Origin: Acinetobacter equi
GTDB lineage: Bacteria; Pseudomonadota; Gammaproteobacteria; Pseudomonadales; Moraxellaceae
Assembly: GCF_001307195.1 (NCBI RefSeq)
Contig: NZ_CP012808.1
Coordinates: 186,001-250,000, forward strand
Reading direction: 5' to 3'
Length of the DNA stretch: 64,000 nucleotides
This document shows positions 35,977-50,617 of the stretch, one piece after another. The position numbers and the translations under genes are program-made. Within the stretch, counting starts at the first letter, position 1; every line of letters starts with the position of its first letter. A model generated the notes under the pieces. The model did no database searches, had not been told where the DNA came from, and was given only the letters and a program-made list of their open reading frames with translations.

Positions 35977-37260
35977 ATGTCTATCCTAAGTTGGGACGAT
36001 TTCGAAGATGATTCGCAAAAACCAGCTGCACAAACACAGCAGCCTGCGCCCGTCGATCCGCAAAAAACGACTAATTCGCAAGTGGTATCTGATGCAGAGC
36101 AACCACAGAAGAATGTGGCAACTACACAATCCACTGGAACCAGTGCAAACAGAACAGCACATCCAACCGATTCGTTGGCAAGAGCATCTAACGCTCTAGC
36201 AAATTTAGATGTTGCACCAGGTCTTGAAGAACTTGAGATGGGTGCACAGCGTGTACAAGTTGATGATAAAGCAATGATCAACTGTCGTGCTGACTTGAAC
36301 CAATTGGTTCCATTTAAATACGAATGGGCTTGGCAAAAATATCTAGATGGTTGTGCAAACCACTGGATGCCTCAAGAAGTTAACATGAACCACGATATCG
36401 CGCTTTGGAAGTCAGAAGATGGCTTAACTGAAGATGAACGTACTATCGTGATGCGTTCTTTAGGTTTCTTTTCTACTGCCGATTCTTTAGTTGCAAATAA
36501 CTTGGTTCTTGCAATTTATCGTCATATTACGAATCCTGAATGCCGTCAATACATCCTTCGTCAATCATTTGAAGAAGCGATTCACACGCATGCTTACCAA
36601 TACTGTATCGAATCTTTAGGTATGGATGAAGGCGAAGTCTTCAACATGTACCGTGAAGTTCCTTCTGTTGCACGTAAAGCTGCATGGGGCTTGAAATATA
36701 CTCAACAATTGAGCGATCCAACGTTCAAAACAGGTACACCTGAAACTGACCAAATTTTACTTCGTAACTTGATTGCATTCTACTGCGTACTTGAAGGTAT
36801 CTTCTTCTACTGTGGTTTCAGCCAAATTTTGTCTATGGGTCGTCGTAACAAGATGAATGGTGTTGCTGAGCAATTCCAATACATCTTACGTGATGAATCA
36901 ATGCACTTGAACTTTGGTATCGATATGATTAACCAAATCAAGATTGAAAACCCTCACCTTTGGACTGCTGAATTCCAAGAAGAAATCGTTCAAATGATTC
37001 TTGAAGGTACTATGCTTGAAATCGAATATGCACGTGACACAATGCCACGTGGTGTATTAGGTATGAATGCAGCGATGATGGAAGAATACTTGAAATTCAT
37101 CTGTAACCGTCGTTTAAGTCAGCTTGGTTTACCAGAGCAATTTGCAGGTGTAAACAATCCATTCCAATGGATGTCTGAAATGATGGACTTACGTAAAGAG
37201 AAGAACTTCTTCGAAACTCGCGTAACAGATTATCAAACTGGCGGTGCTTTAAGCTGGTAA
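35977..37260 (+). CDS. nrdB: Ribonucleoside-diphosphate reductase beta subunit, class Ia
   Basis: A 427-residue radical-generating subunit. The N-terminal 75 residues are a Gln/Pro/Thr-rich extension (low complexity, probably disordered) not found in E. coli NrdB. The diiron core follows, with [12 protein letters not shown] near 195, which supplies Glu, His and the radical Tyr. [13 protein letters not shown] supplies another Glu, and [13 protein letters not shown] gives the last Glu and His. It partners NrdA. The Tn7-like element begins about 10 bases after its stop, so its native terminator has been displaced. Confidence 0.95.
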
Positions 37261-37281
37261 TTGTTTACTCGTCACCGTCAC

Positions 37282-37344
37282 GCGACACATATGTTGTCAT
37301 TTGCGACACATAAAATGTCATTGCGCGACACATAAGTTGTCATT
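37282..37344 (+). repeat. Left-end array of three transposase-binding repeats
   Basis: Three 20-bp direct repeats at 37282-37301, 37303-37322 and 37325-37344 share GCGACACATA and TGTCATT with three variable bases between. They should be TnsB binding sites. Spacing is 1 and 2 bases, an unusually tight array. Confidence 0.8.
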
Positions 37345-37347
37345 GAG

Positions 37348-37375
37348 AAAACCGCCATTCATGGCGGTTTTTTTT
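37348..37375 (+). terminator. Strong terminator inside the left end
   Basis: AAAACCGCCA, loop TTCA and TGGCGGTTTT form a 10-bp stem with a T8 tail. It lies right after the third left-end repeat. It would stop nrdB read-through before the cargo, and so may belong to the element. Confidence 0.85.
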
Positions 37376-37489
37376 AAAAGATGCAATCTAGTCTTTAATT
37401 AAATATTTATATTACACATAGATGTTAAAGCAATGAAAAGGCTAAAATACTTACAAAATTAAATATGTGTTAGGGACGAGACTATTTAA

Positions 37490-40400
37490 ATGTCAAAAGA
37501 TAAGCGCCAAAAAATCTGGAATGAACTAAAAATAACTTATACAAAAATTAAAGAAATTCATTCAGCTCCTCAAATAATCTCTAAAGATCAATATTTGTCT
37601 TTAACACCAATTACTAACGCAGATGAAGATAATGCTTATTCTGATATGCTCAAATTTGCATTATCACAAGATAAAATTAACAACATTGCCATAACTGGAC
37701 CATATGGGTCAGGAAAAAGTAGCGTATTACTTACCTTTCAAACACAAAATCCAAATTGGAAGTACTTAAATATATCATTAGCAACATTTAAAGATCACTT
37801 AGAAATTGAAGGCACTAATAATAAAGAAATTGAAATCGAAGCCATAGAAAAAAGTATATTACAACAACTCTTTTATTCTGTAGATCAAAAAACATTACCG
37901 CGCTCACGACTAAAGCGAATTGTGACTGTTAAACCTAGAGAGCTACTAGCTAATACACTTTTTATTATGTTTTGGATTTTTCTAACACTTTTTGTGTTTT
38001 TTCCAGGAAGTATTTTTTTTGATAAGTTTAGTATACTAGCAAGTTCAGAACAATTCGCTCAAATAACTTTTTCATTATTATTTTTATCATACTGCATAGT
38101 TGGATTATTCACTGGAATAAAATATATTGAAAAACTTAAGGAGCTTAAGTTAAAATTTCAAGATACTGAAATAACATTAAATAATGATAAAACAGAATCA
38201 ATATTAAATAAACATTTAGATGAGATTTTATATTTTTTTGAAAGAACAGATTTCAATATTATCATAATTGAAGATCTAGATCGTTTTGAAAATTCAGAAA
38301 TTTTCATTCGACTAAGAGAACTTAATACTCTCATCAACAATTCAAAACAAGTAAAGCGTCCTATAGTATTTTTATATGCTATCAGAGACAATATGTTTAA
38401 AGATAAAGATCGATCTAAATTTTTCGATTTTATTATTCCGATTATTCCAGTCATAAATCCAACAAATGCTTATGACTTAATTCGGAAAAACTACATTAAC
38501 AAAGAAAATAATAGCCAACTACACAATGAAATAGAAGATATTTTTTTACATCAAGTCTCACTTTATTTTGATGATATGAGACTTGTAACAAATATTTTTA
38601 ATGAGTTTAAACTTTATGTAAAAAAACTCAACAATCCAAATCTCAATAAAAACAAATTATTAGCTTTAATAATTTACAAAAACCACTACCCTGCTGAATT
38701 TGCAAATTTACATTCAAATAAAGGAGAAATATTTCAAATATTCAAAAATAAAAAGAAAAAAATAATTGCAAGTCAATTAGAGGAAATTAAAAAAGAAATT
38801 AAAAATTTAGAAGAAAAAATTCAAACGTCAGAACTCGAAATAATTCAAAATATAATAGAATTGAGGAAATTATATATACATGAAATTCTAAAAAGATTCC
38901 CACAAATCACTAATATTGGCAATAGATATTATTCTATAAATCATATTACATATCTAATAAAACTTAAAGTAGGTGAATTAGATCTAGATTATGAAAACCT
39001 AACATTAGATGAAAACTTCGAAATTATTAAAAAAGCAAATAATATCCAATGGGTTGTTGAAATCCAAAATAATATTCAACACACAAATATTGAAATTAAA
39101 AATAATCAAGATATTACGTTTAGCTTTAAAACTATTGAAAATATAGTTCACAGTTCACTTTCATATAAAGAAAGGGAAACTAGAATTAAAAATCGAGAAG
39201 TCACAAATCGCGGGGAAATATTGGAGCAAAAGCAAGCTTTATTAAATAAAAAAAATAATCTTAAGCTAAATACACTAAAAGAGTTACTCACTATATACTC
39301 AAGTGAAGAATTCTTTGAATCTGACATGCATCCACCTTTACTTCAATTTTTAGTTAGAGAGGGTTACATAGACGAGCACTATCCTGACTATATTTCATTC
39401 TTTATTGACAGTGTAATAAATATTACTGAAAGAGATTACGCACAGTGTGTTATAAACCATCTAAATTCAGAGTTTGACCTAACTTTAACTAATGTGGAAA
39501 AAATATTAGAAAAATATTTAACACCTAGACAGTTTTTACATACAAGCATTCTAAATTTTAATTTAGTAGATTTTATACTAAAAAATGATACTCAATTTAA
39601 AGATCATTACAATAATTTATTCAAATTATTATCAAATCAGGATGAACGTTCAATTCAGTTTATTTTCGAATATATAGATAAAGGAGAAAACTCCCCCCTA
39701 TTCATTAATGAAATAGTTAAAAGCTGGCAGACTTTTTTTAAATATATTCATACGTCAATGACAGATGAAAAAGTCGAAAGCTATCTTCTGCTGATATTTA
39801 AAAATTTAGAAAAAGAAAATATTCCTTTACTTAACAAAGATGACATTCTAAAAAACTATCTGTCTTCTAAAAGAAATTTTATCGAATATATCAAAGATGC
39901 CTATAGTACTGAGCAAGAAATTCTTAACTTTCTACAGCTTATTAAACCAATATTCGAGTATTTGGATTGTACTAATCAAAATAATGTAAGTATATTTAAT
40001 GAAATATGTAGAAATGAATATTTTGAATTTAATGAAAAAATGATATTACAAATTATAAGTATAAATAATGAAGATAAAAAAATTGATGAAATCAAAAATA
40101 TTTTTACTTCAAAACCATATGGTACATTACAAGACTTTGCACCAGACTACTTGAAAACTCAGGTAGACCAATCCATCAGCCATTTCTTCGAAGAAGTTTA
40201 TATTTCATCATCTGAAAATTTAAACGAATCTTCAAATAACTTCATCAAATTAATTAACAATGAAGATTTAGATAATTCTCATAAAGAATGGTTAATTGAA
40301 AATAATGAAGTTCAAATTTCTGATTTAAATGAAATTAAAAATAAAACCTTATGGAGCCATATACTTAAGAACTATAGATTAAATCCAACCTGGAATTCAA

Positions 40401-41254
40401 TTCTTTACTACTATGAAATTATTGAATCTAATATAGATAAAACTATAATTGAGTACATAAACTCACCAGAAGTTTATAATAAATTAAAAGAAGAAAAAAT
40501 TTCCGAGGCTAATAGCTTTGATAAACTTGGTGATATTTCCAAGAAGTTTCAAAGAGATCTATTAAAGGAGAACCTTTTAAATATTTCAGCATATCAATGC
40601 ATAATCAAATCTATCTATTTTACATATAATAATCTTGATATCTCTCAATTATCAGAGGACAAGATTTTATTATTATGTAGAAATAAAGTGTTAACACTAA
40701 ATTGTGAAAACTTAGATAACTTAAGAAATAAAACGAAAAATTTAGTAATAGAATTTCTCTTACCATTTCAAAATATCTTATCTAGCAAAGTACCAGAAGA
40801 TATCGAATTATCTAATGATGAACTTGAGCTTATACTAGCATCTAACAATTTTACGAATACATTTAAAAAAAATATTATTGATAAATTAAAAATTGATCTA
40901 TTTTCAAAGTCTGAAAATATTAGAATCTCAATTATAAAGTTGTATAAAAGTTTATCTTTGAAACTTCCACAAGAGTATCTCGACTTTTATTTTGAAAAAT
41001 CAATTTCTAATACTAAGAATCTAGAACTACTTATAGACCAGATTAAATACTTAGAACATGAGAAAATTTGTAAATACCTAAGCCTACTACAAAACCCATA
41101 TAATGAAATTTCAATCGCAGGTAGACATATAATTATATTAAATGACTTAAATAGTAAACTTTCACTTGAACTAGAAAAAGTTAGTTTTATTCACAAAAAA
41201 GAGATAAAAAGATACAAGATAGCCCAAGATAAAATAGTTTTTTATACTAAATAA
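37490..41254 (+). CDS. YobI-like membrane-associated P-loop NTPase
   Basis: A 1254-residue cargo protein. The N-terminal NTPase domain matches the YobI-type P-loop family: YLSLTPITNADEDNAYSDML, then IAITGPYGSGKSS (Walker A, 70-78) and FNIIIIEDLDRFEN (Walker B, 256-264). Two membrane helices are inserted between the Walker motifs (about 154-172 and 190-210). FLYAIRDNMF near 303 may be the sensor region. The remaining 850 residues are helical and Asn/Lys/Ile-rich with no domain I can name. The architecture resembles STAND/KAP-type sensors. Its place as the main cargo of a Tn7-like element makes a phage-defence role likely, by inference only. Very AT-rich compared with nrdB. Confidence 0.7.
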   Translation: MSKDKRQKIWNELKITYTKIKEIHSAPQIISKDQYLSLTPITNADEDNAYSDMLKFALSQDKINNIAITGPYGSGKSSVLLTFQTQNPNWKYLNISLATFKDHLEIEGTNNKEIEIEAIEKSILQQLFYSVDQKTLPRSRLKRIVTVKPRELLANTLFIMFWIFLTLFVFFPGSIFFDKFSILASSEQFAQITFSLLFLSYCIVGLFTGIKYIEKLKELKLKFQDTEITLNNDKTESILNKHLDEILYFFERTDFNIIIIEDLDRFENSEIFIRLRELNTLINNSKQVKRPIVFLYAIRDNMFKDKDRSKFFDFIIPIIPVINPTNAYDLIRKNYINKENNSQLHNEIEDIFLHQVSLYFDDMRLVTNIFNEFKLYVKKLNNPNLNKNKLLALIIYKNHYPAEFANLHSNKGEIFQIFKNKKKKIIASQLEEIKKEIKNLEEKIQTSELEIIQNIIELRKLYIHEILKRFPQITNIGNRYYSINHITYLIKLKVGELDLDYENLTLDENFEIIKKANNIQWVVEIQNNIQHTNIEIKNNQDITFSFKTIENIVHSSLSYKERETRIKNREVTNRGEILEQKQALLNKKNNLKLNTLKELLTIYSSEEFFESDMHPPLLQFLVREGYIDEHYPDYISFFIDSVINITERDYAQCVINHLNSEFDLTLTNVEKILEKYLTPRQFLHTSILNFNLVDFILKNDTQFKDHYNNLFKLLSNQDERSIQFIFEYIDKGENSPLFINEIVKSWQTFFKYIHTSMTDEKVESYLLLIFKNLEKENIPLLNKDDILKNYLSSKRNFIEYIKDAYSTEQEILNFLQLIKPIFEYLDCTNQNNVSIFNEICRNEYFEFNEKMILQIISINNEDKKIDEIKNIFTSKPYGTLQDFAPDYLKTQVDQSISHFFEEVYISSSENLNESSNNFIKLINNEDLDNSHKEWLIENNEVQISDLNEIKNKTLWSHILKNYRLNPTWNSILYYYEIIESNIDKTIIEYINSPEVYNKLKEEKISEANSFDKLGDISKKFQRDLLKENLLNISAYQCIIKSIYFTYNNLDISQLSEDKILLLCRNKVLTLNCENLDNLRNKTKNLVIEFLLPFQNILSSKVPEDIELSNDELELILASNNFTNTFKKNIIDKLKIDLFSKSENIRISIIKLYKSLSLKLPQEYLDFYFEKSISNTKNLELLIDQIKYLEHEKICKYLSLLQNPYNEISIAGRHIIILNDLNSKLSLELEKVSFIHKKEIKRYKIAQDKIVFYTK

Positions 41255-41292
41255 GAGAAAAGTCTATTCTTTATTAGTATTTAAAGGATAGG

Positions 41293-41514
41293 CTAATTCT
41301 CTAAAAATTTAGCTAAATCTTGCTCTAAAATACTTAACCAGTCGCATAACTCAATCACATCCAGTCGTCTTTCCAAAATTTCGACTTTGGAAACATACGA
41401 TTGAGGCTTATTCAAGCGACGTGCAAGCTCAACCTGAGTCATATTTTTGGACTCACGAAGTTCTATAAGTTTCTTAATTAGGTCTTGATACCTAGGATCG
41501 TGTATTGAGCGCAT
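41293..41514 (-). CDS. Small XRE-family transcriptional regulator
   Basis: A 73-residue protein with one helix-turn-helix (LRESKNMTQVELARRLNKPQSYVSKVE) and a short tail. It is probably a dimeric repressor. A perfect AAAATATCC-N7-GGATATTTT palindrome lies 23 bases upstream of its start and is the likely operator. It converges with the big NTPase gene, whose stop is 38 bases away, and diverges from the HTH gene at 41633, so it may control that gene or its own promoter. Confidence 0.82.
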   Translation of the reverse strand: MRSIHDPRYQDLIKKLIELRESKNMTQVELARRLNKPQSYVSKVEILERRLDVIELCDWLSILEQDLAKFLEN

Positions 41515-41536
41515 GGCTCAATATCAGTTACAATTA

Positions 41537-41561
41537 AAAATATCCCAAAATAGGATATTTT
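41537..41561. promoter_or_regulatory. Operator-like palindrome for the XRE regulator
   Basis: AAAATATCC (41537-41545) and GGATATTTT (41553-41561), spaced by 7 bases, are exact reverse complements. The core TATCC-N7-GGATA is close to the HipB-type operator TATCC-N8-GGATA. It lies in the divergent promoter region between 41514 and 41633. Confidence 0.6.
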
Positions 41562-41632
41562 CATTTAACCCTCGTATGTTTATTGATTTTTTTATTTTGG
41601 ATAATGATTGAACGATAGTTTAGGAACTCAAT

Positions 41633-41875
41633 GTGAAGCAAAAATTTTCTGTAACTCAAATTAATAGCATTGTTAAAAAACATTTAGCAGGTGCCACTAT
41701 CGAACAGGTTTGTCAGGAATATCAAATTAGCGTGGCAACTCTCTATCGCTGGAAAGCAAACTATTTAGACGTAAGTGAAAAAATTCTCACTCGTTTAGAT
41801 AAGTTAGAGCAAGAAAATTTCATTTTAAAACAGATGTATGCTGAAGAAAAATTATCTAAACGGCTGGAAATATAG
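41633..41875 (+). CDS. Small HTH protein related to IS3/IS2 transposase OrfA
   Basis: An 80-residue protein starting at GTG 41633 after GGAACT. It has an OrfA-type helix-turn-helix (HLAGATIEQVCQEYQISVATLYRWKANY) followed by a leucine-zipper-like segment (LTRLDKLEQENFILKQMY). No OrfB, frameshift signal or terminal repeats follow, so it is either a transposase relic or a domesticated DNA-binding protein of the element. Its intact frame and place opposite the XRE gene favour the latter slightly. Confidence 0.6.
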   Translation: MKQKFSVTQINSIVKKHLAGATIEQVCQEYQISVATLYRWKANYLDVSEKILTRLDKLEQENFILKQMYAEEKLSKRLEI

Positions 41876-41965
41876 GGCTTTTAACCCACCTATTCTTTAC
41901 GATCCATTAGCTCCAATTAAAAATTTCGAATGTAAATTTCAAAGATAGTTTGCATTCGATGCAGT

Positions 41966-42808
41966 TCAAATAGCATCTTTTCCCAGAACGCTATCTCCAT
42001 CCAATAGATTTAGTACTCGTGTTTCATGCAATAAATTTGATAATGCTCTAACACTTTCCTTTCTTGTAATACCTACTTTCCCCTTATCTTCCATTGCTAA
42101 CAATAGATTTATCAAAATTCTCACATTTTTCGAAAAACTGTCTACAAAACTTTTATCCAATACTTGCTTTGTTGAGCTAACTAAAGAGAAAACGTTCGAA
42201 TTAATTAATGAAATAAAGTTTTCACGATAATTAAAGAATGGAAGTTCAGTACAGATAATAAGTAGAGTCCTATAAATAGACTGACTTAATGCAGAAGTAT
42301 CCTCTTCCCTTTGAACAGCCAATTTAAAAAAAACTATCTGTGCTGCCAATGCATCCAATCCAGCTAAATACTCTAACTGGCGTAATTTTCTTTTAGATAG
42401 GTGCATGACTAATGCACTCCCACAATCGTATTTGTTAGCTTTATAAAGAATACGTTGGACTTCCCACGATAGATTTCTAAGCTCATCACTTAACAGCGAA
42501 TCAATACTAATGGAGTTATTCATTACCTGCCAAAGAGTATGTTTAAGAAGCATAGAGCTGCCTTGTACATGAGATTCTGCCTGGCCTATAAGTATAGGAC
42601 TTGGAGTATGTTTACCTAAGCGATAACCTCGCCATTTATTATTATGATAAGCATCACCATGCTTATTTTTATTAAAAGCATCCGGCTCAATTACTTTTTC
42701 AATTTGATAATCTGAATTTTTAGATAAATTGACCCTAATATACCAATACCATAATGAAACTCGAACGATATCTATCTCACTTCTTTTTTCCATTTGTGTA
42801 TTTTTCAT
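41966..42808 (-). CDS. Transposon-borne protein of unknown function
   Basis: A 280-residue soluble protein that I do not recognise. ATG 42808 follows GAGG by 11 bases. The N-terminal part is basic and polar, with WYWYIRVNL and a Lys/Asn/His-rich stretch; the C-terminal half is helical. There are no membrane helices or catalytic motifs. It lies alone on the minus strand between the HTH gene and the PrtN-like gene, in the position where Tn7-like elements often keep accessory transposition or cargo genes. Confidence 0.55.
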   Translation of the reverse strand: MKNTQMEKRSEIDIVRVSLWYWYIRVNLSKNSDYQIEKVIEPDAFNKNKHGDAYHNNKWRGYRLGKHTPSPILIGQAESHVQGSSMLLKHTLWQVMNNSISIDSLLSDELRNLSWEVQRILYKANKYDCGSALVMHLSKRKLRQLEYLAGLDALAAQIVFFKLAVQREEDTSALSQSIYRTLLIICTELPFFNYRENFISLINSNVFSLVSSTKQVLDKSFVDSFSKNVRILINLLLAMEDKGKVGITRKESVRALSNLLHETRVLNLLDGDSVLGKDAI

Positions 42809-42972
42809 TTTTTAGTCAACCTCAAAAAAAATCCTAGTTATAGTTATTTATAATTTAAAAACAATAAATTAGAAATTTGTATAGAGTAAAAGATTGAGCT
42901 ATTTTTACTTTCTACACAACTTTTTTTAAAAGATATATGCTTCTGTTGTGACAGGACAATACAAGATACCCT

Positions 42973-43239
42973 ATGCAAAACCATTTAATAGTTGATGCAA
43001 CAACAATTGAAAAAGAGCTATTTGACCGTTACGGCCCACTAATAGCTGATGATGCTTTAAGAATTGCTTTAGGTTACAAAACCACAGATGCTTTTCGTCA
43101 AGCATTAACACGTAAAACTGTTCCTATTCCTATTTTCACTTTCCCTAATCGTCGTGGAAAATATGCGTTAGTAAAAGATGTTGCTACATGGCTAGCAAAC
43201 CAAAGAAACTCATCTTTAGATCCGAACCATAACCACTAA
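42973..43239 (+). CDS. Small DNA-binding-like protein (PrtN/AlpA-like)
   Basis: An 88-residue protein. LFDRYGPLIADDALRIALGYKTTDAFRQAL has the form of the helix-turn-helix of pyocin-activator PrtN-like and excisionase-like proteins, followed by a wing region (FTFPNRRGKYALVKDVATWLAN). It stands directly before the structured region and tnsA on the same strand, so control of transposase expression is a reasonable guess. A weak SD only (GATACCCT before the ATG). Confidence 0.55.
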   Translation: MQNHLIVDATTIEKELFDRYGPLIADDALRIALGYKTTDAFRQALTRKTVPIPIFTFPNRRGKYALVKDVATWLANQRNSSLDPNHNH

Positions 43240-43296
43240 ATTTTCATTCTTCAAAAATTTTTATGGAGTCATCATGAAAAACTAAACCAAAAATCA

Positions 43297-43456
43297 ATAA
43301 AAAACGGACCCTAAAAAAGGATCCGTTCGTGACTTTATATAGAAGCATATAAAGACCTGAGAATCATAGTATCTTCTCTATATCGTCACCAGTCAAGTAA
43401 GTACTATTCCATTGGAATAGTACAGATTAGCTCATTCTCAAATGTTTATTGAGAAT
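43297..43456 (-). ncRNA. Candidate structured RNA upstream of tnsA, with intrinsic terminator
   Basis: Five inverted repeats lie in 160 bases. From the minus-strand 5' side: ATTCTCAA/TTGAGAAT (43434-43456); an 11-bp palindrome GTACTATTCCA-T-TGGAATAGTAC (43401-43423); GTGAC/GTCAC closing a helix (43329-43333 with 43385-43389) around two hairpins, GAGAA/TTCTC and CTTTATAT/ATATAAAG (43333-43354). Last comes an AACGGATCC/GGTCCGTT hairpin (43303-43327) followed on the minus strand by TTTTTTATTG. The U tract exists only for minus-strand transcription. This fits a small RNA reading away from tnsA, or two operators plus a terminator. No promoter was identified with confidence. Confidence 0.4.
43401..43423. 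promoter_or_regulatory. 23-bp near-perfect palindrome upstream of tnsA
   Basis: GTACTATTCCA and TGGAATAGTAC flank a single T, 58 bases before the tnsA ATG. Such an uninterrupted dyad is more typical of a dimeric repressor operator than of an RNA hairpin. It may be the binding site of one of the element's small HTH proteins. Confidence 0.55.
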
Positions 43457-43480
43457 AGAATTACTTCTGGATGAACAGAT

Positions 43481-44185
43481 ATGTCTTATAAAACAGTTTT
43501 TTCAAAAACTGATATTCAAACAAGTATCCTAGAACAAATCAGGATTGCCTTCGAATCAACAGCAAATGTAGCAGCTACATTACATGGTCAACGAAAAATC
43601 CATCAAGGTTCTTTTGGTCGTAGAACCTCTCTATTCCCTAGTCAAAAGTGTTGCGGTGCAATACCACTAGAAAGCCGTCTTGAACTGGCTCATGCGATCA
43701 GTTTAGAACAAAATCCAAACGTCATTAATTATCGATCACAAGCATTAAAAATTTTACTTATCAATGAACAGTATTGTTTTCCAGATTTCTTGGTTCAAAC
43801 TAAAGAAGGTGCTTATGAAGTCCATGAAGTCAAACCATCCATAGCATCATTGTCAACTGATGACTTAAACCGCTTTGCAAAACTTTCTAATCTACTCCAC
43901 TCAATGGATATTACTTTTAAGCTAATAGATCACACAGACTTACCAAGTGAATCAGAAATTTCGCAGCTACTTTACTGGTATCAAAGAGGACATAGATTCA
44001 ATTGGAATACCCTCGAAATCAATTACGCCTTACGTCACTTAAATTTCGAAGAATTTTATACCTCACAGCAAGTCTACAAAACACTTGAATCAATAGGTCT
44101 TAAACAAGAACTCGCTGATTATTTATTTTTTCATAAAAAAATTAAGCTTCGCTCAGAAAATATGAATAGTCGAAAGGTCTATTAA
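43481..44185 (+). CDS. tnsA: Transposon Tn7-like endonuclease subunit TnsA
   Basis: A 234-residue PD-(D/E)xK endonuclease that cuts the 5' strands at the transposon ends, giving cut-and-paste movement. The catalytic set is visible as Glu64 in IPLESRLE, Asp102 in CFPDFLV and Glu116-x-Lys118 in YEVHEVKPS. The C-terminal third is the helical domain that contacts TnsC. ATG 43481 follows GGATG by 8 bases. The tnsB start is one base after its stop (TAATATG), so the two are coupled. Confidence 0.9.
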   Translation: MSYKTVFSKTDIQTSILEQIRIAFESTANVAATLHGQRKIHQGSFGRRTSLFPSQKCCGAIPLESRLELAHAISLEQNPNVINYRSQALKILLINEQYCFPDFLVQTKEGAYEVHEVKPSIASLSTDDLNRFAKLSNLLHSMDITFKLIDHTDLPSESEISQLLYWYQRGHRFNWNTLEINYALRHLNFEEFYTSQQVYKTLESIGLKQELADYLFFHKKIKLRSENMNSRKVY

Positions 44186-44186
44186 T

Positions 44187-46067
44187 ATGGAAAACTCTCT
44201 TTTTATACCTCAATCTGGTTTTCGTTTTTATTTTAAAGCACATCCCGACTATATTTTTGAAATCGGATCTATAACCTATAATGCTATTCGGTATGCTGCT
44301 ATAGCTGGTGGAAAATCATTTTCAATAACACCCACCGAATTCGAAAGCCGCTATAAATTAGGTGAAATTTTATGTGTATTTGCACCTGAGAAACTCATAA
44401 TCAACTCCAAATATAGCTCAGAACTTCATCGCAAAGAACGCTATGTTATTAATGCATTACAACTATTGGAGCACCCTACAAGTATTAATCTGCTTTCCAA
44501 ATTAATCCCCCAAATAGCTTCCGACATTAATGACCTTAACCCACCTTCGTGCCGTACTGTAGCAAGATGGATCAATAAATATCAAAGTTCTTCTCAGAAT
44601 AAACTGTGCTTACAAAATAAACATTCAGGTAATCGCAGTTTACGATTCTCTCCTGAAATTTATCAAATTCTAAATCAAGCAATCAATGAAATCTATTTAA
44701 AGCCTGAATATAGAAGTGGTAAAGACGTACTTGCCTATATGCTTGGTCGATTCATGGAACAAGGCATCCCATTAGAACAGTTACCAACACTTCGTAGTAT
44801 CCAGCGACATATCAAAAAATTAGATCCTTATATTGAATTTAAAATGAAAAAAGGGTCCCGAATAGCAAAGAAAAAATTTCAAGCTGCTGGCAAAAGTATC
44901 ATTAGTCCATTCGCTCTTTATATGGTCGAAATTGATACACACTATTTAGATCTAATCGTTATTGATCCGAAGACGAAACTTGCTTTAGGCCGACCATTTC
45001 TCGCATGTGCAATTGATATCTACTCTAGAGCCATTGTTGGAACTTATATCAATATGTACCCCCCTAGTGCTGCAACTACATTAGAAGTCATCAAAGATAT
45101 GATTACTCGGCCAAACCAAAAGTTACCAGGAGGAATCCCAAGTATCGTCATTCCAGATAATGGAGTGGAGTTTAAAAACAATGCTCTCGAGCGAGTATGT
45201 GAACAGCTGAAAATTACTTTGACTCCTTCCCAAGTAGGTACACCTAATAACAAACCTCATATTGAACGTTTTTTTAGTACGCTCACACATGGGATTATTC
45301 AAAAACTACCGGGTACAACTTTTTCTAATCCAATGAATAGAGGTGAATATAATTCAAGTAAAATTGCACAATTAACTTTAGAACAATTAAAACAATATAT
45401 AGATACTTGGATTCATGAGGTTTATCACCGATCTATCCATCACACGACAGGACGTTCACCTATCATCATGTGGCAAGATGCCATTGAAGATATACGACCG
45501 AGTTTTCTTACAGATATAGATGCAAAAATTTTATGCCGTAGGCCTATTGAAAGAAGCATTAATCACGGTCAAGTACGTGTAGATGGTATTAGTTATTTTT
45601 CACATGCTCTAACTACACTACAAGCTAAAGGCATAAAAAAAGTTACCGTGCTTATAGATGATTTAAATTTAAATGAAGTTTTTATCATTGATCCCGACAA
45701 AAAAGATGTAATCATTCAAGCAGATTCAACCAATCAAGACTATACATTTGGATTAACACGAGTAACCCATCTTGAAGTTCAAAAACTCAAGAAAATCCAA
45801 TCTCAATCTGATAAACAAAAAATTGGTTCGATGTCCGATTTATATTGTCTGTATAAACTTATGCATGAGATTCAAACTAATCTTGTGAGACGAAAGCCAA
45901 GATTGAAACCACTTACTCTTGAGCTTCCCAAGCAACTACAGAGGATCGAAGAACAACTATTCTCAAAAGACAAGGATATTGCTGAACAAGCTGTTTCCTC
46001 AATAAATGTACCTACACCAATCAATCAATTTGGTTCATTGGAGGTATTTAAACATGGAAAAATTTGA
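44187..46067 (+). CDS. tnsB: Tn7-like transposase TnsB (DDE/rve superfamily)
   Basis: A 626-residue integrase-fold transposase that recognises the end repeats and joins 3' ends. The catalytic triad is Asp250 in MVEIDTHY, Asp324 in IVIPDNGVEF and Glu360 in NKPHIERFF. N-terminal helix-turn-helix modules (NPPSCRTVARWINKY, QLPTLRSIQRHIKKL) bind the ends. A Mu-type C-terminal barrel follows (RRPIERSINHGQVRVDGI). AAAGG precedes the start. The stop overlaps the tnsC start by 14 bases. Confidence 0.92.
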   Translation: MENSLFIPQSGFRFYFKAHPDYIFEIGSITYNAIRYAAIAGGKSFSITPTEFESRYKLGEILCVFAPEKLIINSKYSSELHRKERYVINALQLLEHPTSINLLSKLIPQIASDINDLNPPSCRTVARWINKYQSSSQNKLCLQNKHSGNRSLRFSPEIYQILNQAINEIYLKPEYRSGKDVLAYMLGRFMEQGIPLEQLPTLRSIQRHIKKLDPYIEFKMKKGSRIAKKKFQAAGKSIISPFALYMVEIDTHYLDLIVIDPKTKLALGRPFLACAIDIYSRAIVGTYINMYPPSAATTLEVIKDMITRPNQKLPGGIPSIVIPDNGVEFKNNALERVCEQLKITLTPSQVGTPNNKPHIERFFSTLTHGIIQKLPGTTFSNPMNRGEYNSSKIAQLTLEQLKQYIDTWIHEVYHRSIHHTTGRSPIIMWQDAIEDIRPSFLTDIDAKILCRRPIERSINHGQVRVDGISYFSHALTTLQAKGIKKVTVLIDDLNLNEVFIIDPDKKDVIIQADSTNQDYTFGLTRVTHLEVQKLKKIQSQSDKQKIGSMSDLYCLYKLMHEIQTNLVRRKPRLKPLTLELPKQLQRIEEQLFSKDKDIAEQAVSSINVPTPINQFGSLEVFKHGKI

Positions 46068-46995
46068 GAATCGTTTTGAACAAATTCGATCGATTAACAA
46101 TCTTGTTATCACTTCCAATGAATTCATGGTCGCTTTCACAGGCATACAAGATTGCGTAAAAAGAAGTATTTCATTTAGCGAACCAGTTGGATGTATGCTT
46201 CTTGCTGAAGGAGGACTTGGAAAAACAACCCTCTGTAAAACAATCTTGAGTCTTATGCCTCGTACAGAAAAAATTGAGACGGATCATAAGAAAAATATCA
46301 TCCCTGTATGCTATGTAGAGGTACCATCGCCTGCCACAGTTAAATCATTAGCAATAACGATGCTCAAAGAGCTTGGCGATCCTACTTATGAAAATGGGTA
46401 TGGCACTACTGAATACTTAACTAGCAGGCTTATTTATTTACTCGCACAATGCGAAACTAAGCTTATATTCTTAGATGAATTTCACCATTTATTTGAGCGT
46501 AAACCAACATCTACAAGAATGAATCGGACTACAGGCAATTGGCTTAAAACGCTAGTAAACCGAACAGGGATTAGTTTTTGTTTAGTTGGTTTACCTGAGT
46601 TTGTCCCACTACTTCAAGTTGATAGCCAGATTGCTCGTAGATTCCCTTTCATCTACCACCTAAATCCATTAACTGTTGATCCTTCAAGTGGCGGGAGCAT
46701 GTTTGCATTTCTTGCTGAAGTTGCAAGAACACTCAATAAGCAAAATATCACTTTCTCACCACCTCTAAATAGCCAACTTGTAGGCATGCAAATTCAACTA
46801 GCAACAAAAGGCTATCACTCATATGTAATGAGCCTGATTAGGGAAAGTATCGCACATGCTTTACATGATAATAGGCAAGTAATAACTCCCCTCGATTTCA
46901 GTTATTCATGGAAATTAGGCATCACGCTCTACATTAGCAAACAAAATAAAAATCCATTTGAAATGAACATTTCACAAATCATTTCATTAATTTAA
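46054..46995 (+). CDS. tnsC: Transposition AAA+ ATPase TnsC (TniB-like)
   Basis: A 313-residue AAA+ protein that links target selection to the transposase. ATG 46054 lies after TTGGAGG and inside the tnsB end; a longer frame from 46006 lacks an SD. Walker A is LAEGGLGKTT at 50-59, Walker B is KLIFLDEFHH near 145, and FCLVGLPEF with an Arg-finger-like IARRFPF follow. The size is nearer TniB than Tn7 TnsC (about 555 residues). The split tniQ/tnsD starts 11 bases after its stop. Confidence 0.9.
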   Translation: MEKFENRFEQIRSINNLVITSNEFMVAFTGIQDCVKRSISFSEPVGCMLLAEGGLGKTTLCKTILSLMPRTEKIETDHKKNIIPVCYVEVPSPATVKSLAITMLKELGDPTYENGYGTTEYLTSRLIYLLAQCETKLIFLDEFHHLFERKPTSTRMNRTTGNWLKTLVNRTGISFCLVGLPEFVPLLQVDSQIARRFPFIYHLNPLTVDPSSGGSMFAFLAEVARTLNKQNITFSPPLNSQLVGMQIQLATKGYHSYVMSLIRESIAHALHDNRQVITPLDFSYSWKLGITLYISKQNKNPFEMNISQIISLI

Positions 46996-47006
46996 TAGTC
47001 AGAATT

Positions 47007-47246
47007 ATGCAAAATCCTCTTTTAATACAAGCAATACCTCATGAAGATGAATCACCAATGAGTTTCTTGTTAAGAACAGCAGAACTCAATGCACATAGTT
47101 CAATTTTTAATTTAATAGGCAAAGAAAAGTATAAATCTATCATTCGTCAGTCTTTGAATTATCATATTTCTGATATGAAACGCTTCACTCAAGTGTTAGA
47201 AGTATTAAATCTTGATAGTTCTTATAAATTTCTAGCTTTTGAAAGA
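47007..47246 (+). pseudogene. tniQ/tnsD-type targeting gene, 5' part (cut off by the IS)
   Basis: About 80 codons with the typical TniQ start (LLIQAIPHEDESPMSFLLRTAELN), running up to the left end of an IS3-family element. The frame then continues into the IS and stops at 47357. Removing the IS together with its terminal repeats joins this part in frame to the segment at 48523-50232, giving a TnsD-like protein of about 650 residues. The insertion therefore separates the N-terminal TniQ segment, which contacts TnsC, from the rest. Confidence 0.8.
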
Positions 47247-47313
47247 TTGATGTGTGCTGAAAAAAACGGAGACTTTAACTTGGTAAACTACACATACTCA
47301 TCAGGAGTTTACC

Positions 47314-47613
47314 ATGAGCAAAAAACAAAAGATTTATACAGCAGAATTCAAAGCTGAAGCAATCAAAGCTATTGATTCAAACAATGGCAATGTTTCAGAA
47401 ACAGCACGACTGCTTGGCATTTCAATGCAAACCCTTTCAAATTGGTACAATAAAGCAAAAGCTGGAAAATTAGTAGGCACACAACAATATTCACCTGATC
47501 TCGTTGCTCTTCTCGAGGAAAATAAAAAACTGAAGCAGCAACTTAAAACCGCTGAAATGGAAAGAGAATTTCTAAAAAAAGCAGCAGCGTACTTTGCCAA
47601 AGAAAGTCAGTAA
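47314..47613 (+). CDS. IS3-family transposase OrfA
   Basis: A 99-residue DNA-binding protein. The helix-turn-helix is NGNVSETARLLGISMQTLSNWYNKAK, followed by a leucine zipper (LLEENKKLKQQLKTAEMEREFLKKA). AGGAG precedes the ATG. The A7 run at 47574-47580 lies in the phase needed for slippage, and a -1 shift there continues without stops into orfB, giving the OrfAB fusion transposase. Confidence 0.9.
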   Translation: MSKKQKIYTAEFKAEAIKAIDSNNGNVSETARLLGISMQTLSNWYNKAKAGKLVGTQQYSPDLVALLEENKKLKQQLKTAEMEREFLKKAAAYFAKESQ

Positions 47614-47624
47614 AGTACGTACAT

Positions 47625-48479
47625 ATGAAACAGCAAAAACATGCATACTCAGTCACTATGATGGCTCGGTTACTCCACGTTTCAGTTTCTGGATTTTATG
47701 AATGGTTAAAATATGGCTTAAGTAAGCGGGTTATTCAGAGAAATCATCAAACAATATTGGTTAAAATTGCTCACCAAGAAACCAATGAAAGCTATGGTTA
47801 TATTCGTTTAACCAAGTACTTACAGGCACAAGGAATAGAAATTAGCGAGTATGCAGTTCGTTGTATTAAAAAACTTAATCAGCTGTATTGTAAGCGGCAT
47901 AGGCGTTTCAAAAAAACAACTCATAGCGACCATCAACGTACGGTTTACAATAATTTGTTAGAGCAAAATTTTACAGTGACTGCTCCAAACATTGCATGGG
48001 TAAGTGACATTACATACGTGTGGACAGCTGAAGGATGGCTGTATTTAGCGGCTTTAAAAGATCTTTGCAGCAAACAAGTAGTTGGGTATAGCTTGAGTGA
48101 ACGGATGACGTCACAGCTCGTTTGCAATGCACTGAGCATGGCGATTCGAAATCATAAACCCTCTCAAGACTTGATTATTCACTCTGACAGGGGCAGCCAA
48201 TACTGTAGTCATGAATATCGAAAGATACTTGAAAAATATGGATTTCAGGGATCAATGAGTAAACGCGGTGATTGCTTCGATAATGCTCCTATTGAGAGCT
48301 TCTGGGGAATATTAAAAAATGAATTGGTTCATCATCGCAATTATAAAACAAGGGAAGAAGCTAAAGCAGATATTACAAAATACATAGAGCTATTTTATAA
48401 TCAGCAGAGAATTCAGAAAGGATTGGACTTTAAGACACCAAATCAAATGGCAGAAGACTTTTACAGGATGGCTGCCTAG
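47625..48479 (+). CDS. IS3-family transposase OrfB
   Basis: A 284-residue rve-type catalytic protein. The DDE residues are in AWVSDITYVWTAEG, IHSDRGSQYCS and NAPIESFWGILKNEL. An N-terminal HTH_21 region (YSVTMMARLLHVSVSGFYEW) is present. It lies in the -1 frame relative to orfA and is probably made mainly as the OrfAB fusion. The frame is intact, so the IS may be active. Confidence 0.9.
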   Translation: MKQQKHAYSVTMMARLLHVSVSGFYEWLKYGLSKRVIQRNHQTILVKIAHQETNESYGYIRLTKYLQAQGIEISEYAVRCIKKLNQLYCKRHRRFKKTTHSDHQRTVYNNLLEQNFTVTAPNIAWVSDITYVWTAEGWLYLAALKDLCSKQVVGYSLSERMTSQLVCNALSMAIRNHKPSQDLIIHSDRGSQYCSHEYRKILEKYGFQGSMSKRGDCFDNAPIESFWGILKNELVHHRNYKTREEAKADITKYIELFYNQQRIQKGLDFKTPNQMAEDFYRMAA

Positions 48480-48522
48480 AATTTCCCAAGTAGAAGTGTC
48501 CTGTTATTTCAGCACACATCAA

Positions 48523-50232
48523 AAATGGGGGAAACTCAAAATTAATAATAATTTGTTAGAACTTCAAACATTTTCCTATTGTCCTAAATGTCTTTCTATT
48601 GAACCTTTCTTTAGAAAAATTTGGTTATTCAAACCTATCTACGCATGTCCTATCCATTCAATCTTTCTTATTGATCGATGTGATAATTGTGGAGTTCATA
48701 TCAAGCTCCAAACAGGAACTATTACACATTGTCCAATTTGTAGCTTTGAATACTCTCAAGCTATTAAAAGACACTGTAATACAATTCAAAATATTGAATG
48801 GTTTATGAATATTCTTAAAGAAAGTGATACTAAATTCTTTCATGAATTTACATCGTATTGGTTAGCAATTGAAAATTTCGCCAACTTACAGACACCACTA
48901 AATCTAGAAGATCAATTACACATAACCTTTGAATATTTCACTAATCAAGCTCTTTCAATCACAAGATTAAGTCAATGGATTAATAATAGAATTGAATTAG
49001 CACACCCTAGAATCCAACTTCTCTCTTTTCTTAAAGAGCAGAAAAATTTTTATTATTATCACAAATATATTCAATTAATTGAGAAAAACTGCAAGCCATA
49101 TGTTCCTAGCTTCGAATCTAAAATTATAAAACTGCTTCCTAGTGAAACAATGTTAGTTTTGGACATTGGGCGCGGAAAATTTAAAAGCTTAGTGAAACAG
49201 GATTTTCTTAATTTAGGCAAAGATTTTTATGATTTTAATTGTTTTCTAAGCACTGATGTAGAAAAATTTATGGTCTCAAATACTCTACAATTTTCACAAT
49301 ATAAAACCATTCAAAATCTTAATGAATCTAAAGATGATACTTCTCAATTACGCTTAAATGAAGTTGCGGAAAAACTTGATATTAATTACGAAACAGCAAG
49401 AAAGTTAGTTAAAACTCACTGGTTCAATAAACAAAACCAGAAAAGAACTCGATCATCAATAAAGATTTCTCTCATAGATCTTGAAATATTTGATTCTAAT
49501 TATATTCTGGCTTCAGCGTTAGCAAAGAAACTTGCTATTAATCCCACAAATATTGTTGAGAAGCTTTCAAGCCTTGGTATCAAAGCAATTAGTGGTCCTC
49601 ATATTGATAATCAGCCTATCAATATATTTTCTCGATCATCAATAGAGAATATTCAGCGCGATGAAATTTGTGAAATAGATCATTACCCAACTAGAACAGG
49701 TCGCTCTAAATCTAAGTCAAAAAACCATATAGAGCAAAATACTGATTCTTTAACAAAAGCAGCTAACCAGCTTAAAATTAGTCTACAGCAGGTAATTTTT
49801 CTTACTCACGTCGGTATTCTTACAAGGAGTCATACCCACCCTATTTCTATAAGAATTGAAAAAACATCTATAGAAGCACTTAAAAATAAAACCCAAAATA
49901 ATGACTACGTTTCTATTAAAGGTGCCGCTAATTTACTAAATTGCACTCCTATTTGGCTTGTTCAATACTGGTGTAAAACAGGGTTTTTAGAAATTGAGGA
50001 ATTGATCTATTGGAGATTAATAAAAAAAAGTCAACTTGATAAAGTTATTAAATTAAAAGAAGAATATCTAACAGGTGCTGAAGCTAGTGCATTGCTAAAT
50101 ATGCATCACTCACATATCACAAATTTGCAAAAACAAGGGTTAATTAAAGCATATTATATGGGTAAAACTAATAAAAAAATTAGGCTATTTAAACGGAAAG
50201 ATATAATGCGTATCAATCTAGAAAGCTCCTAA
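48523..50232 (+). pseudogene. tniQ/tnsD-type targeting gene, 3' part with zinc site and HTH repeats
   Basis: About 570 codons. An open frame from GTG 48496, inside the right end of the IS, could still be translated as a truncated protein. Cys/His pairs in FSYCPKCL, YACPIHSI, RCDNCG and HCPICS form the TniQ zinc sites. The C-terminal 300 residues contain five successive helix-turn-helix-like segments (LNEVAEKLDINYETARKLV; ALAKKLAINPTNIVEKL; KAANQLKISLQQVIF; GAANLLNCTPIWLVQYW; EASALLNMHHSHITNLQ). These are presumably the part that reads the attachment site, as TnsD does at glmS. Without its N-terminal segment the protein probably cannot recruit TnsC. Confidence 0.75.
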
Positions 50233-50617
50233 ATCAATGATTAAGAAAAATAGCATAAGAAAATATGCTAACAGGTATCCTAACCTATATGTCAAAGAAA
50301 TATATGAAAGCTTTAATAGACCTCTTTCATAATTGTATTTTTGTTAATCAGTAAAAAGCTCTAAGCCTTATATTTTTTGTCTTTTACCTCAAATTCTATG
50401 ATTCTTATTTGATTAAAAAATGATTCATGAAAGAACTCTTATATTTATCAAAATGACATGGGAAGTGTCGTTTTTATTCCATAATGACACTGGTTGTGTC
50501 GCAAGACAATGTCATTGAGTGTCGCAGTAACACTTAACATATTGATTTTACGTATACCAAAATGACAAGCGATGTGTCGTATTACGTTACTTCGTTAAAT
50601 GATATTTTTTATACTTA
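50233..50617. other. Right end of the Tn7-like element and flank
   Basis: No supported gene; a 31-codon frame at 50237-50332 is not convincing. The region holds the right-end repeats and, beyond 50591, AT-rich flank. A short AGCATA/TATGCT hairpin after tnsD lacks a T tract. Confidence 0.5.
50452..50580 (-). repeat. Right-end array of transposase-binding repeats
   Basis: Inverted copies of the left-end 20-mer occur at 50452-50471, 50483-50502 and 50561-50580 (AATGACA-N4-GTGTCG core), and a degenerate half-copy at 50506-50525. The copies are spread over 129 bases, against 63 for the left array, so the ends are asymmetric as in Tn7. Confidence 0.8.

Follow-up and report, generated by a model that had tools for sequence, protein, structure and literature searches.

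The stretch analysed here, 64,000 nucleotides of the Acinetobacter equi genome (contig NZ_CP012808.1, positions 186,001 to 250,000; hereafter the window), contains nrdA followed by nrdB and, directly behind them, a Tn7-like element at 37270–50586 whose first base lies 9 bp past the nrdB stop codon (Table 1). An original prediction, made from the sequence alone, had placed a Tn7-like transposon after nrdB and proposed nrdB as its attachment site, and tnsA, tnsB, tnsC, a TniQ-type gene and opposed repeat arrays are indeed all present. The combination of a TnsB DDE transposase, a TnsC AAA ATPase and a TniQ-family protein places the element among the Tn7-like transposons. The catalytic residues named for TnsA (E64, D102, E116 and K118) and for TnsB (D250, D324 and E360) proved invariant in 8/8 and 9/9 aligned sequences, respectively, and the window TnsA is predicted to be a cut-and-paste endonuclease. 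The TnsD/TniQ-type gene is there as claimed but is not intact, being split by an IS3-family element.

Table 1. Features of the nrdB locus and the adjoining Tn7-like element, in window coordinates.
Feature	Position	Strand	Remarks
nrdB	35977..37260	+	host gene adjoining the insertion; recognition proposed at its conserved 3' end
Target duplication TTACT, nrdB side	37265..37269		begins 4 bp past the stop codon
Six extra bases, CGTCAC	37270..37275		copy of the element terminus
nrdB-proximal end	37276..37344	+	terminus CGTCACG and three 19-bp units (37283, 37304, 37326)
Hairpin and T-run	37348..37375	+	terminator-like, element-borne, just inside the proximal end
Cargo gene, Tmn-like defence NTPase	37490..41254	+	1254 amino acids; Pfam PF20693, E 8.8e-118; PADLOC Tmn, E 4e-76
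IS3-type transposase fragment	41633..41875	+	helix-turn-helix part
280-residue protein	41966..42808	-	no Pfam match; relatives in several related elements
88-residue small protein	42973..43239	+	ahead of tnsA; relatives in many related elements
tnsA	43481..44185	+	PF08722 barely above its cut-off; catalytic residues in 8/8
tnsB	44187..46067	+	Mu-transpos_C above cut-off, rve just below its own; DDE in 9/9
tnsC	46006..46995	+	TniB-type AAA ATPase; PF05621, E 5.6e-24
tniQ, first part	47007..47247	+	about 80 residues, severed by the insertion sequence; DNA identity 98-100% to three relatives
IS3-family insertion sequence	47248..48521	+	within tniQ; without matching 3-bp flanks
tniQ, second part	48522..50232	+	zinc-finger region and C-terminal helix-turn-helix series, from alignment with relatives
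Distal end	50452..50586	-	units 50452, 50483, 50561; terminus CGTAATA reading inward
Target duplication TTACT, far side	50587..50591

The arrays at the two element ends are built from a 19-bp unit, CGACACA-N5-TGTCATT, and face each other; the distal array has an additional weak unit at 50508 with 4 mismatches. Unit spacing is similar among relatives, 21/22 on the nrdB side and 31/77–78 on the far side. By published convention, the end upstream of tnsA is the 'right end' (PMC11406308), and the nrdB-side end is therefore the right end. In the second part of tniQ, Pfam returns a partial PF06527 match just below the cut-off together with HTH_17, and TniQ and HTH_17 were matched in 13/13 aligned members, namely 12 relatives and this second part. 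A TnsD-type make-up, in which a TniQ core is followed by a long C-terminal DNA-binding part, is predicted from these sequences and likewise from the fold of a relative.

Comparison of the regions downstream of nrdB across Acinetobacter, the check proposed with the original prediction, found related elements at this position in numerous genomes and strongly supports nrdB as an attachment site. The 3' end of nrdB was located in 175/175 genomes and the bases past its stop were read in 152, one genome per species, with the resulting figures counting ends rather than whole elements. Multi-unit Tn7-type ends follow nrdB directly in 59/152 genomes, of which 42 have the window type, 12 a second type (TGAATGACAG...GAGATTTTTGACA), four a third type and one (G103) another repeat. 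A single unit, often decayed, is present in 12 further genomes and none, by these rules, in 81, some of which (G018, G028, G072) may hold decayed remains. After the bases had been read, G047, G054 and G119, at first labelled window-type, were assigned to the second type, and G103 left the 'none' group as the bearer of another repeat; the supposed unit of G049 is a native palindrome, and this genome was counted under 'none'. Two of the 23/175 genomes outside the census (G053 and G055) also have end units after nrdB, as does a second nrdB fragment in G004. The window-type terminus lies 6–15 bp past the stop in 40 of the 41 ends measured and at 32 bp in the other (median 11 bp), and the second-type terminus 7–14 bp past it in 12/12. 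All ends at nrdB share one orientation, and the insertion points span about 10 bp. One second-type element at nrdB, in A. qingfengensis (G077, L049 2300–15830), carries TniQ and a cargo that by eye looks like restriction-modification genes; no match to the window tnsA, tnsB or tnsC was found between its ends, and the element may be a remnant or may depend on movement in trans.

The borders of these elements were placed by comparing 10–20-kb stretches around 20 TniQ relatives, to which further stretches were added later. In 15 complete elements, the window counted, both termini could be placed from the end units, and exact 5-bp repeats lie immediately outside the predicted termini in 13 of them; in a 17 by 17 grid of offsets, none of the 288 other offset pairs gives more than two exact repeats. 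The TTACT border duplication, which had been rated only a chance-level hint, was thus undervalued. The window itself is not among the 13, as its TTACT match requires that the six extra nrdB-side bases be allowed for. The second exception (L032) has a matching 5-bp repeat after two extra nrdB-side bases, and G120, left outside the 15 because its termini are on two contigs, has four. In all three cases these additional bases match a prefix of the terminus, and those of the window are probably the remnant of an older element whose tip was entered by a second one. The duplicated pentamers and the insertion offsets vary from element to element. Pre-insertion sites matching the joined flanks, with small differences, were found for the elements of G159, G139 and G011, and the fourth belongs to the second-type element in G054, itself located inside an older window-type end that is unbroken in G050. 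The proposed search for empty sites therefore succeeded for the predicted borders of four relatives and not for the window's own genome (G000), for which the listed matches outside G000 start at least about 600 bases into the flank and fall mostly at the neighbouring gene.

These data bear on the idea that a single ancient insertion after nrdB was inherited throughout the genus and then diverged, so that targeting would be unnecessary. Members that occupy one locus in one orientation are what such a history would leave behind. However, the duplicated pentamers differ and sit at different offsets, 81/152 genomes lack an end by the rules applied, though a few may hold decayed remains, relatives have pre-insertion sites, and different end types occur at the same few bases. 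Between species, moreover, tnsB is more alike than nrdB. With unequal insertion points, empty sites and tnsB likeness exceeding nrdB likeness, a single ancestral insertion is rejected as extremely improbable.

The distribution of TniQ links the protein itself to the site. A TniQ profile run on 348 genomes of the family gave 38 matches at E ≤ 1e-15, of which 35 reach E ≤ 1e-20, and in 35/35 genomes of the latter set an end or end-like array lies directly after nrdB. Where tniQ and nrdB share a contig (27 genomes), tniQ is downstream of nrdB on the same strand in every case; in the other eight they are on separate contigs, and several of the 35 genes are broken or partial. None of these 35 of the 348 genomes shows the finding that the original prediction had named as speaking against it, namely the same TnsD at unrelated loci. 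The three weaker matches (G095, G118 and G158) are short frames away from nrdB. Loci other than nrdB are occupied by two relatives that pair TnsABC with a short TniQ; neither of these two short proteins matches Pfam at E ≤ 0.01, their assignment to TniQ being based on 22% identity across about 160 residues, and the 326-residue TniQ of L229 may itself be shortened, since a transposase-like frame comes next. It is the long TniQ that, by sequence comparison, is associated with nrdB. One of the 35 genomes, G185, is from a different genus, with nrdA 78% alike; an element follows its nrdB, and the genome is listed as 7% contaminated. In the same genome, two end sets are apparently stacked directly after nrdB (L226 13063–13496). 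Named genomes were found to contain 21 TniQ loci, 20 of them in Acinetobacter and one on a contig of a 'Sphingobacterium' metagenome-assembled genome (L124, TniQ 45%), and 390 genomes drawn from the order yielded a single TniQ match, in the window's own genome. Four A. baumannii records carry TniQ at 35–38%. In two of these four, filed as plasmids, the transposition genes come after nrdB, and in one of the two, NZ_CP077849, the end units scanned begin a few bases past nrdB. In the nrdB element of CP035931.1 (577094–579100; A. baumannii), TniQ is annotated as 'excisionase' and TnsA as 'endonuclease', and a gene annotated as 'chromate transporter' stands between nrdB and the transposition genes.

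The host sequence that would be read is most plausibly the coding end of nrdB. The last 24 NrdB residues are identical in 132 of the 134 genomes compared, and the conservation of the nrdB end falls mainly on the first two codon positions. Past the stop, no column among 30 reaches 75%, so that any sequence read should lie within the coding end. The element is very probably a Tn7-like cut-and-paste transposon, directed by its TniQ/TnsD-type protein to insert a short way downstream of nrdB. The borders, the 5-bp duplications, the single insertion zone, the one orientation and the occupied and empty sites on which this reading is based are all read from the compared genomes; the physical reading of the nrdB end by TniQ is inferred by analogy with TnsD. 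In this scheme, the C-terminal helix-turn-helix series of TniQ would bind the 3' coding end of nrdB, which is nearly invariant, its zinc-finger core would recruit TnsC, and TnsC would in turn bring TnsAB and the element ends, as happens with TnsD at glmS. The window copy is probably immobile by the TniQ route, because its tniQ is split.

The target could instead be selected by a guide RNA, by the 88-residue protein or by a partner as yet unrecognised, TniQ serving only as a bridge to TnsC. Relatives of the 88-residue protein do stand ahead of tnsA in many related elements, and Tn6022 employs a separate selector, TnsF (PMC10293859). On the other hand, a plasmid relative that is not at nrdB has a small gene annotated as 'DNA-binding protein' ahead of tnsA (homology to the 88-residue protein not established), and TniQ has the long, TnsD-like C-terminal series. 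Among the 10 open reading frames (ORFs) scanned, PADLOC matched no Cas effector of the kind that a transposon associated with clustered regularly interspaced short palindromic repeats (CRISPR) would carry; guide arrays were not searched for. A separate selector is accordingly very unlikely. The 88-residue protein is possibly a regulator.

The position of the insertions may also matter for transcription. Of the 79 scanned sites without an end, 75 have a hairpin with a T-run no more than 80 bp past the nrdB stop, compared with one of 79 in the control stretch 100–180 past the stop. A hairpin 60–160 bp past the stop and inside the element was found at 31/40 window-type and 12/12 second-type ends. 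An insertion after the stop would cut nrdB off from the native terminator, for which most elements would bring a replacement just inside the proximal end, the element-borne hairpin being its putative form. The native terminator can also be turned into an argument that the space separating nrdB from this terminator is merely permissive, with insertions occurring widely and the harmless ones surviving, for a site behind an essential gene is safe, and ends of the same type are found away from nrdB as well. A genome, however, has very many gaps between a gene and its terminator. That all 35 genomes with this TniQ nevertheless have an end at nrdB, and that the insertion points are confined to about 10 bp in a single orientation, makes mere permissiveness very improbable, and guided insertion remains the preferred reading.

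The window copy appears to be a mosaic. Its tnsA, tnsB, tnsC and first tniQ part have 93–100% DNA identity to those of G159, G104 and G091, while the nrdB genes of these genomes are only 81–89% alike to that of the window, which points to recent transfer of the transposition genes between species. The second tniQ part has 44% protein likeness to the same three, which are themselves 87–92% alike there. Unfused stacks exist in G063 and G104, where one element has inserted into another a few bases in from its tip. Given the divergence between the tniQ parts, the insertion sequence (IS) at the join without a 3-bp repeat and the unfused stacks elsewhere, it is fairly probable that the window element arose by fusion of two elements stacked at nrdB and joined within tniQ at the IS3-family copy. 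A simple IS-interrupted copy is less likely, the two tniQ parts having different nearest relatives. The genome holds nine full, near-identical copies of the IS3-family element, counting the one within tniQ, and the missing duplication of the latter is weak proof of fusion, because a 3-bp repeat was seen by eye in just 3/8 copies inspected.

Taken together, a narrow balance of probability favours a broader proposal in which Tn7-type elements across the Moraxellaceae use the nrdB end as a common dock. TnsABC backbones that have diverged, and whose ends are of two or more and probably four kinds, would converge on the same few bases through related C-terminal selector domains, arrivals would insert into a resident's tip, stack and fuse, and the spare terminator of the ends would restore the end of the nrdB transcript.

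Related ends and cargo were also noted in other settings. Window-type ends occur away from nrdB in identical surroundings at L234, L237 and L240 (G047, G050 and G139), which are probably one plasmid. At L231 (G137) and L244 (G130), related ends lie close to the same small gene, whose product we take to resemble a VF530-type protein and which is perhaps another attachment site. A variant end, CGTATTGCGACACATATCTTGTCA, is found in G014, G015, G016, G028, G058, G061 and G090 off their listed nrdB positions and perhaps represents a further subfamily of ends that has a target of its own. Tmn-like cargo is also carried behind nrdB at L247 443–4201 (G031) and L038 4431–8204 (G159), with protein likeness of 86% and 69%, respectively.

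No publication naming nrdB as a Tn7-type site was found, the supplementary lists of the two large surveys (PMC10293859 and PMC8649781) and most subscription papers lying outside the scope of the search, so that an earlier mention is possible; literature on tandem insertions gave no description of the site either. The string 'nrd' has no occurrence in the main text, so far as available, of PMC11406308, PMC10293859 and PMC8649781, and PMC9241911 names nrdB only as a plasmid gene. The kind of element is already known; what is new here is the nrdB site, its breadth, the convergence of end types and the putative carried terminator. The element most likely works in the manner of TnsD, and its attachment site is widely used within one genus. 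Tn7-type transposons thereby gain an attachment site that is widespread in Acinetobacter, A. baumannii records included. A conserved safe site by an essential gene, with its cognate selector, would aid the understanding and perhaps later the placing of insertions in Acinetobacter, and the pattern of stacks and fusion renders target immunity between divergent elements testable.

Sites tabulated for Tn7-like elements include glmS, yhiN, comM, plasmid resolution sites, parE and tRNA genes (Table 1 of PMC11406308, in part). The parE, tRNA and yhiN sites are likewise conserved chromosomal attachment sites, and nrdB is absent from these rows. Tn6022, known from Acinetobacter, comprises TnsA, TnsB, TnsC and TniQ, lies in comM and requires TnsF (PMC10293859). 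The nrdB element shares the four proteins but differs from Tn6022 in lying after nrdB and in its long TniQ; no tyrosine recombinase was matched by Pfam among the 10 ORFs scanned. Nor was TnsE, which Tn7 has, recognised among these ORFs. In Tn7 the gene-adjacent end is the end upstream of tnsA, and the nrdB element has the same arrangement. Tn7 inserts about 20 bp past the glmS stop, and the 36-bp site bound by its TnsD lies in the 3' end of glmS (PMC2918618). The nrdB element differs in its target, in its termini, which for the window type lie a median of 11 bp past the stop, and in having end sequences of its own. Like Tn7, it combines TnsABC with a TniQ/TnsD protein, a site just past a housekeeping gene with a nearly invariant C-terminal peptide, and a 5-bp duplication.
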